DNA from: an uncultured Pseudomonadota bacterium
GTDB lineage: Bacteria > Pseudomonadota > Gammaproteobacteria > Burkholderiales > SG8-39
Direction of reading: 5' to 3'
Assembly: GCA_903834835.1 (NCBI GenBank)
Contig: CAILKO010000029.1
Coordinates: 1-64,000, forward strand
DNA: 64,000 bases
Part shown: in pieces, positions 22,188-28,089 of the stretch
Position numbering within the stretch: position 1 is the stretch's first letter
How the letters are laid out: each line of letters begins with the position of its first letter
Program-made: the position numbers and the translations under genes
Notes under the pieces: generated by a model
Database searches by the model: none
The model's input: the letters and a program-made list of their open reading frames with translations, nothing else
What the model was told of the DNA's origin: nothing

Positions 22188-22652
22188 CTAGCCGAGGCTG
22201 CGCAGGACTTCCAGCAGTTCGGCGCTCTCGGGGATGGTTCCCGGCGCGTAGGCCTTCGCGTACCGGATGACGCCTTCCCGGTCGATGACAAAGGCCGAGC
22301 GCCCGTCAATGCCGCGTTCCTCGTTGAATATCCCGTAGGCCCGGCCTGTCGCGCCGTGCGGCCAGTAGTCGGACAGCAGCGGGAAGGGCAGATGGCCCAG
22401 CTGTTCGTCCCAGACCTTCAGGCTCGGCAGCGTATCGGCGCTGATCTGGAGAATTTCAACGTTCAGCTGTTTGAAAGATTCGTAGTTCGCACGGAACCCG
22501 GTGACCTGATTCTTTCATCCACCCGTGAAGGCGAACGGCAGGAAGGATACGACCGTTGCACGGCCGCGGAAATCCGCAAGCGCGAGCTTCTTGTCGGTAT
22601 GGCTGTTGAGGCTGAGTTCCGGAGCTTTGCTACCTGGCTGCACTATGCTCAT
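22188..22652 (-). CDS. ahpE: AhpE-like 1-Cys peroxiredoxin with in-frame UGA at the catalytic position (probable selenoprotein)
   Basis: This is a thiol peroxidase family that reduces peroxides. Translation from the ATG at 22652 (GGAG upstream) gives 45 residues ending PFAFTGG, then TGA (22515-22517), then a further 108 residues in the same frame. These continue the peroxiredoxin fold without interruption (NQVTGF, FPLLSDYWPHGA, AYGIFNEERGIDGRSAFV) to a TAG at 22188. The UGA falls exactly where the peroxidatic Cys of FTGxC stands in AhpE-like enzymes. The protein has no Cys codon anywhere, so selenocysteine-46 would be the only redox residue. A hairpin follows the UGA directly. The alternative is a nonsense mutation, but the intact downstream frame and the exact position argue against it. 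Sec-containing peroxiredoxins are known in other bacteria. Confidence 0.82.
22473..22516 (-). promoter_or_regulatory. Candidate bacterial SECIS hairpin after the UGA codon
   Basis: On the coding (minus) strand the lower stem pairs GAAAGAATC, beginning inside the UGA, with GAATCTTTC (8 of 9 pairs). An upper stem GGTTC/GAACT at 22484-22498 closes a CGTGC loop that starts 22 nt after the UGA and has G at loop position 2. Size (about 44 nt), distance and loop G agree with bacterial SECIS elements read by SelB. Folding was done by eye. Confidence 0.6.
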
Positions 22653-22826
22653 GGCGGTCTCCTCGTGCTGCTGTGGTCCGCGGGCGGATGCGCGCGGCGG
22701 CGCAACGGCGCCTTCCCGGAGCATAGCGGCGGGCTCGCGACTCTGCAATGTGCGCATCGGGCGGGGCGGCGGTGGTCACGGGTAAACTCGGGTGCTGCGA
22801 TACCCCACTCAATCAGAGGATTTCAA

Positions 22827-26469: not shown

Positions 26470-28089
26470 TCATGAACTGCACGATAGCATGGAGCAGCCG
26501 GCCTTCTGACGCGCCCAGTCCGGGCGCAGACCGGCATAGCGCTCGTTACCGGGCTGGTCGTCGTAGGGCCGGCGCATGATCCCGAGCAGGCGCTCGATCT
26601 CGCCCGTGTCGCCCGCCTCGGCTTGCTCGATAGCCTGCTGCGCCAGGTAGTTGCGCAGCACATAGCGCGGGTTCGCGGCGTTCATTCCGCGACGCCTGAC
26701 AACCGGATCGGACCCGTCCTCGCGAACCCGGGCGCCATAGCGCGCAAGCCAGGCTTCGAAGCGCGGGGCCTGCCTGTCACGCAAGGCCGGATCGTAGAAC
26801 GCGTGGGCGAGCGGCGCGAGGCCAGGGGCGGCAGGATTCACATCCGACAGGCTGCGGAAGAACACGGTCATGTCGGTTTCGGATTCCTGCATCAGACCAT
26901 AGAGCTCGTACTCGAGGTCCAGATCCCGGTCGCCGCATGCAAGCAGTCCGAGTTTGGCCGCCACATGTTCGCGTTCGGCTGCATCGTAGGCCGCCGCATA
27001 GCGTTCGAGTCCTTCCACGAGCGGGGCTTCGGAAGAGAATACTGGGAGCAACGCATTTGCGAGCCGGGTGAGGTTCCAGTGCGCGATCTGCGGCTGATGT
27101 CCGTAGCGATAGCGCCGGCCTTCGGCGTCGGTGGTGTTGGGGGTCCAGTCCGCATCGAAGTTGTCGATCCAGCCATAGGGGCCGTAGTCGATGGTCAGAC
27201 CGAGGATGGACATGTTGTCGGTGTTCATCACGCCGTGCACGAAGCCGACGCGCATCCAGTGGGCGATCATCCGGGCAGTGCGCTCGCAGACCTCGGCAAA
27301 CCATCGTGCGCGCAGCCCTTCGTCCGCGACTTCGCCTTGGGCCGCGATATCTGCGAAGTCTCTTCGGATCGTGAAGTCGATAAGCCGGTTCAGCACAGCC
27401 AGGTCGCCGCGCGACGCGGGCAGTTCGAAATGGCCGAAGCGCAGGAAGGAGGGTGCCACGCGGCAGACCACGGCCCCGGGTTCGGGACGCGCACGACCGT
27501 CGTAGAACATGTCGCGCACCACGTCTTCGCCGGTGCCGACGAGGCTCAGGGCGCGCGTGGTCGGGACGCCCAGATGGTGCATCGCTTCGCTGCAGAGAAA
27601 TTCACGGATCGAGGAGCGCAGTACGGCGCGTCCATCGGCGGTTCGGGAGTAGGGGGTGGGGCCCGCCCCCTTCAATTGCAGCTCCCAGCGTTCGCCGGCG
27701 GCGTTGACGACTTCCCCCAGGCTGATCGCGCGACCGTCGCCGAGTTGACCCGCCCAGTGTCCGAATTGATGGCCGCCGTAGTTTGCGGCATACGGTTGCA
27801 TGCCCTCGATCAGCTGATTCCCGCCGAATACGCTGGCAAAGTCCGGCGAGGCGATATCGTCGGGAGTCAATCCCAGCAGTGTCGCGACCTCAGGCGAGTG
27901 TGCGAGTAGTCGCGGTGCGCGCACGGGCGTCGGTTCGATGCGTGAGAAAAGCGCGCCCGATACCTGTCGGCGCCGCAGCCCGGATTCGGCGTCTGCGGGC
28001 AGTTCGCGCACGTAGCGGTTGTCGAACCGGAGGCCGGACAGCGGCCGTTCCGTAGTTCTGGATGTATCGGGTCTAGGATCACGCAGCAT
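26470..28089 (-). CDS. selO: SelO-family protein adenylyltransferase (YdiU/UPF0061)
   Basis: A pseudokinase-fold enzyme that transfers AMP to protein Ser/Thr/Tyr residues during redox stress. It has 539 residues, full length. Landmarks are [57 protein letters not shown] and [13 protein letters not shown]. The C-terminus ends CSMLSCSS, giving the conserved cysteine pair where eukaryotic SelO has selenocysteine; here both are ordinary Cys. It is followed at some distance by the hemerythrin gene on the same strand. Confidence 0.93.

Follow-up and report, generated by a model that had tools for sequence, protein, structure and literature searches.

The window analysed here is a stretch of 64,000 nucleotides (positions 1 to 64,000 of contig CAILKO010000029.1) from an uncultured bacterium of the order Burkholderiales. 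On its minus strand it carries a gene for an AhpE-like peroxiredoxin that is interrupted by one in-frame UGA codon and is probably a selenoprotein gene. The features of the gene are the following:

22188..22652, minus strand: candidate AhpE-like Sec-peroxiredoxin gene, 154 codons from ATG to TAG, with a PF00578 match and AhpE as best solved relative
22515..22517, minus strand: UGA codon 46, at the peroxidatic position (from the translation and a column shared with homologues), putatively read as Sec
22515..22538, minus strand: active-site motif PxxxTxxU (PFAFTGGU, residues 39-46), in which P39, T43 and residue 46 do not vary across the 33 sequences aligned
22299..22301, minus strand: Arg118, invariant in the same alignment, which we take to be the catalytic Arg from the role of the AhpE Arg
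22659..22664, minus strand: Shine-Dalgarno-like GAGGAG, 6 nt 5' of the ATG, read from the sequence

Retranslation of 22188-22652 gave 154 residues followed by the TAG stop, with exactly one in-frame UGA, as residue 46; the TGA was also read directly at 22517-22515 of the minus strand. The frame read through the UGA codes for zero cysteines, so that both the single interruption of an otherwise intact 154-codon frame and the lack of cysteine proposed in the initial annotation were borne out. Under translation table 11, an 80-aa ORF (22515-22757, minus strand) terminates at the UGA and the 3' part of the gene yields no ORF of at least 80 aa in the gene's frame; standard annotation does truncate the gene, as had been foreseen. 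A domain search with C substituted for U placed PF00578 (AhpC-TSA) over residues 6-131 with an E-value of 3.9e-32. This match crosses the UGA and conservation persists 3' of it, in agreement with the family similarity claimed for both sides of the codon. The seven top solved relatives are all M. tuberculosis AhpE entries, with E-values from 5e-31 to 4e-30, the next family following at 6e-17. The peroxidatic Cys of these entries aligns with the UGA, and the comparison with AhpE structures and Cys homologues confirms its assignment to the catalytic position. About 4 kb from the peroxiredoxin, the window also holds a gene for SelO, a protein adenylyltransferase (26470-28089, minus strand), with an open frame without UGA; its closeness is probably due to chance.

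Across the 33 aligned sequences, in which U is printed as C, P39, T43, residue 46 and R118 are invariant and no conserved Cys is present outside column 46. Between residues 4 and 150, 26 of the 35 in-group proteins have no Cys and the other 9 have one. The predicted fold, modelled with Cys in place of Sec, has a pLDDT of 96, and M. tuberculosis AhpE fills the first 12 places among its PDB matches, with TM-scores of 0.93-0.95 by query length. An R116A mutant of the latter enzyme is named in the title of entry 4xih. With regard to the AhpE signature, PxxxTxxC plus Arg, the P, T and R are present and the Cys position is occupied by UGA, from which we infer a Sec form working like AhpE. A peroxidase function is suggested by the modelled fold and these residues. 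The protein could alternatively be a selenoprotein with a main job other than peroxide removal, e.g. a redox sensor or a selenium-dependent reductase. This reading gains from the genomic context, as a comparison of the eight window neighbours with 38 loci revealed no conserved neighbourhood, only the multi-copy TctC type being matched outside its own locus. The AhpE fold and the invariance of P39, T43 and R118 in 33 sequences argue against it, and we consider it unlikely.

The phylogeny started from 77 rows and, once 11 near-copies had been removed, was built on 66; it leaves out six loci that gave no BLAST hit, together with roughly a dozen others that were fragmentary, duplicated or not relevant. 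All 31 rows of the window type group together in one clade (99/98). Actinobacterial Cys AhpE (98/91) and probably secreted Sec peroxiredoxins of the same order (100/99) make up two separate clades, and the three have no supported joining order. The nearest join of the window clade is with Anaerococcus and a second AhpE-like UGA subfamily (L064, L065, L128-L134; 35-42% identity to the window protein), with a support of 89/80 and long branches. The Cys/Sec changes on the tree number 3 at fewest, a count that is unsafe because of long branches (L066, L107, and Anaerococcus with L064/L065). The AhpE likeness put forward by the initial annotation is supported by the best solved relatives and by the predicted fold, while the tree gives no supported tie to Actinobacterial AhpE.

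Several further observations were made on these rows. Ten genomes of the order (L096-L105) encode a further, probably secreted, UGA peroxiredoxin with TDTUTTE, TKTUTQE and similar sites. Two of them, L103 and L104, have a thioredoxin-like frame (WASWU or WATWU) directly upstream of the UGA peroxiredoxin, so that these loci probably carry two UGA genes in tandem. Two record labels look doubtful: the protein of L032, titled Bordetella parapertussis, falls among Burkholderiales drafts in the tree, and that of L037, titled Bifidobacterium breve, beside the uncultured actinobacterium L038.

The conservation of the UGA was then followed among relatives, using as query the peroxiredoxin with Cys in place of the UGA residue. 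With such a query Cys homologues would score at least as well, and the searches are therefore not biased against them. A search of the contig collection returned 26 loci with relatives, 16 of them betaproteobacterial. TGA stands at the same column in all 16 betaproteobacterial loci, which are 63-72% identical; the remaining loci, five from Actinobacteria and five from Anaerococcus, reach no more than 47% identity and have Cys at this column. Aligning the gene to Cys homologues of AhpE, a check proposed in the initial annotation, places the UGA in their Cys column. At the order level (300 genomes), 23 places above 100 bits were found in 22 genomes, and 22 of the 23 hold one TGA, whose column was verified too; the remaining place lies on a contig fragment starting immediately 3' of the UGA, and the TGA is found in the first half of the gene, which sits on another contig. 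Within the window's own family (98 genomes, E <= 1e-25), one TGA was likewise present at each of the 18 places, which are spread over 16 genomes; 17 of them were re-read and show it at the same column, in an FTGG-stop context, the 18th being the window gene itself. The UGA peroxiredoxin is patchy in this family (16 of 98 genomes), and in a phylum-wide draw of 398 genomes (E <= 1e-15) 12 genomes were matched, with TGA only in the window's own match.

These counts bear on the reading of the UGA as a genuine stop, or as the result of a nonsense mutation, leaving a pseudogene or a 45-residue peptide, which is how table 11 interprets the codon. In 16/16, 22/23 and 18/18 cases the UGA recurs and the 3' half of the gene is intact, the conservation of the protein extends 3' of the UGA, and sel genes are present in the genome, which makes a stop or pseudogene very improbable.

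The source genome, a draft assembly, comprises 3.37 Mb in 74 contigs; its completeness is 88.9% and its contamination 3.7%. Its sel genes, none of which lies on contig C29, are the following:

C49:154348-156240, minus strand: selB, 394 bits, over cut-off
C49:156294-157637, minus strand: selA, 580 bits, over cut-off
C49:157724-157814, minus strand: selC (tRNA-Sec), 72 bits against a gathering score of 47; called tRNA-SeC with anticodon TCA (UCA) by ARAGORN
contig C54: selD, 429 bits, over cut-off

The genes selC, selA and selB form one cluster on contig C49. Matches below cut-off to the selB, selD and tRNA-Sec models occurred in 14 of 14 control genomes (over cut-off, selB in 2, selD in 2 and tRNA-Sec in 5 of the 14), and only over-cut-off matches were counted because the weak ones also ring in the controls. 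The initial annotation had supposed that the organism decodes UGA as Sec and had named the absence of selB or selC as grounds for giving this up; both are present in the genome, and with selA, selB, selC and selD all over cut-off the supposition is supported.

A search of the same genome with AhpC-TSA gave 12 matches, two of them with one TGA, the window gene and C74:22716-23054. The latter (L111:985-2127, minus strand), with UGA taken as Sec, gives a 380-aa frame containing TWASWUGC; it is barely over the NF041054 cut-off (302.4 vs 300 bits) and is ResA-like (WAxxUGC), an established selenoprotein family. With TIGR01553, 7 matches were obtained in this genome, all below cut-off and free of inner stops, and with TIGR01591, 4 matches, one of them over cut-off (C57:99991-102015) and none with an inner stop; therefore FdhA of the UGA type was not seen in this 89%-complete draft. 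The match at C57:99991-102015 is a formate dehydrogenase alpha gene without inner stop and hence not of the UGA type.

The presence of selA was also compared with that of the UGA gene. At the order level, all 22 genomes that have the UGA gene also have selA over cut-off, vs 87 of the 300 genomes overall; the hypergeometric probability of 1.8e-13 for this is overstated because it treats the genomes as independent, which they are not. At the family level the figures are 15 of 16 vs 41 of 98; one 89% complete draft (G702, locus L127) gave no selA match although its UGA peroxiredoxin shows the frozen letters of the hairpin described below. The converse is loose, as 65 of the 87 selA genomes of the order and 26 of the 41 of the family are without the UGA gene at these thresholds. 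Suppression or reassignment of the UGA to another residue, e.g. Trp via near-cognate read-through, found no supporting point; the position is that of the peroxidatic Cys of Cys homologues, the genome has the full sel gene set and selA co-occurs with the gene, so that this reading is more improbable still than a stop.

Directly 3' of the UGA, a putative bSECIS element was delineated:

22484..22498, minus strand: putative bSECIS core GGUUC-CGUGC-GAACU, loop at 22493-22489 with GU at 22492-22491; frozen codons, and a compensated stem in the second subfamily
22472..22517, minus strand: extended stem in the window from RNA folding, UGAAAGA (22517-22511) pairing with UCUUUCA (22478-22472) and enclosing the core

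Codon use was examined in the 30 less redundant of 35 homologues. Codons +6 to +13 past the UGA use one codon each wherever the commonest residue is present. Two of the frozen codons are rare, GGG being found in 30/30 vs a usage of 11% and CGT in 30/30 vs 21%; the others are TTC (30/30), GAG (17/17), AAC (30/30), TAC (29/29) and GAA (21/21 and 16/16). Synonymous choice varies anew from about codon 15, except at five later single positions (<0.001). The string GGGTTCCGTG[AC]GAAC is present in 35/35 in-group sequences, in L106 and in 10/10 further family members; among these 46 sequences a few are copies of a single gene. The frozen letters are able to pair as GGUUC/GAACU around a loop CGUG[A/C]. 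The second subfamily has, one codon further on, a UUCAAC/GUUGAA stem with the loop CGUGC (2/2 and 7/7). When the stems of the two subfamilies are compared, all cells pair and 4 of the 5 core pairs are changed on both sides, in a comparison of four distinct rows only with the loops put in register by hand.

The bSECIS model, in the relevant parts of PMC13188914, has a G at loop position 1 or 2, with G or U commonly coming next, a spacing of 16-37 nt, a loop of 3-9 nt, a stem of 4-16 bp and an energy <= -7.5 kcal/mol. The window hairpin falls within these limits with its 5-nt loop CGUGC, in which the G is second and followed by U, its 5-bp stem (one G-U), a spacing of 21 nt and an energy of -9.4 kcal/mol with the core enforced, vs a free minimum of -11.8 kcal/mol with a different inner pairing. 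With the core enforced, 11 of 37 sequences, window included, reach <= -7.5 kcal/mol and 26 miss it. Of 54 sequences (41 distinct 48-mers), only 28 have the inner four pairs of the conserved hairpin in their free-energy minimum, and the window sequence is not one of these. The fold of the window is modestly better than that of shuffled sequences (z -1.85; 8 of 200 as good). The inner hairpin obtained from folding the window alone, which differs from the conserved one, was not retained; the conserved hairpin rests on the comparison between sequences. The frozen hairpin would be the SelB site. As for a sequencing or assembly error hiding a real TGC or TGT, for which the draft state of the assembly speaks, the same TGA in tens of separately assembled genomes and the frozen synonymous codons that adjoin it leave a negligible chance.

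Taken together, these data support, with a probability of roughly 0.87, the hypothesis of a selenoprotein gene encoding a 1-Sec AhpE-type peroxiredoxin, with hairpin-directed insertion of Sec46 and a peroxide-reducing activity. The insertion of Sec at UGA 46, considered by itself, appears highly probable. SelB-dependent Sec insertion, the attack of a selenolate on peroxide and the reduction of selenenic acid by thiols are established in Sec decoding and in peroxiredoxins. In the proposed mechanism, the hairpin directly 3' of the UGA would recruit SelB with Sec-tRNA-Sec, and UGA 46 would be decoded as selenocysteine, giving the full 154-residue protein. The selenol of Sec46, aided by Thr43 and Arg118, would then attack the peroxide and be converted to selenenic acid. 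As the window protein has no cysteine to resolve the selenenic acid, an outside reductant would be needed, and a thiol or redoxin would restore Sec46, with glutathione/glutaredoxin or thioredoxin as a guess.

More broadly, we tentatively propose, at somewhat less than even odds, that Betaproteobacteria have a Sec-only AhpE-like branch of cysteine-poor single-selenol peroxidases, with no Cys form there, in two subfamilies with a shared SECIS loop and mostly different stems, and that this branch, with the ResA-like selenoprotein, may keep the Sec system where formate dehydrogenase uses no Sec. Where the UGA is taken for a stop the gene is truncated, so that annotations of many genomes may overlook an enzyme of peroxide defence. 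Natural 1-Sec AhpE-like enzymes, that of the window being cysteine-free, would offer a clean measure of the benefit of Sec over Cys.

Among known systems, the window protein resembles M. tuberculosis AhpE (Rv2238c) in its length, its fold, the FTGxC/U site and the WPHGA and AYGxFNE motifs. It differs from it, with 36-37% identity in the fold alignment, by a UGA in place of the Cys. The thiol partner is probably different from that of the M. tuberculosis enzyme; mycothiol is not known from betaproteobacteria. Mycothiol is named in the title of AhpE structure 5id2, and AhpE is called a 1-Cys peroxiredoxin in those of 1xvw and 1xxu. The relevant parts of one review (PMC6155587) place AhpE in aerobic Gram-positive Actinomycetales, whereas the window clade is betaproteobacterial. 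The AhpE treatments in the consulted parts of PMC6155587 and PMC12697902 mention no Sec AhpE, and a term search of the accessible text of PMC12013277 returned no Prx, AhpE or Burkholderiales. No Sec AhpE-like clade is named in the accessible papers covered here, among them the relevant parts of PMC13188914, PMC9312934, PMC1088965, PMC1794560, PMC5029168 and PMC2398784.

The PrxU type (NCBIfam NF040737) shares peroxiredoxin similarity with the window protein, which at 82.8 bits is far under the cut-off of 270; PrxU identity was rejected. For Sec-decoding Betaproteobacteria, the part of a 2006 survey that bears on them (PMC1794560) gives one selenoprotein family, FdhA; the present gene indicates a use of Sec in this group beyond formate dehydrogenase. 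Sec peroxiredoxins with TxxU, of PF00578/COG1225, are a known Prx selenoprotein family in the relevant parts of PMC13188914, PMC1088965, PMC1794560, PMC9312934 and PMC2398784, where AhpE is not named; the remark of the initial annotation that Sec peroxiredoxins are known elsewhere agrees with this. The window protein has both the PF00578 domain and TxxU. Judged from domain and motif, it shares with this family Sec at the peroxidatic position, the AhpC/TSA fold and the TxxU site. The window gene would then encode a further TxxU-type Sec peroxiredoxin, closest to AhpE, whose status as a selenoprotein is well supported by comparative sequence analysis.
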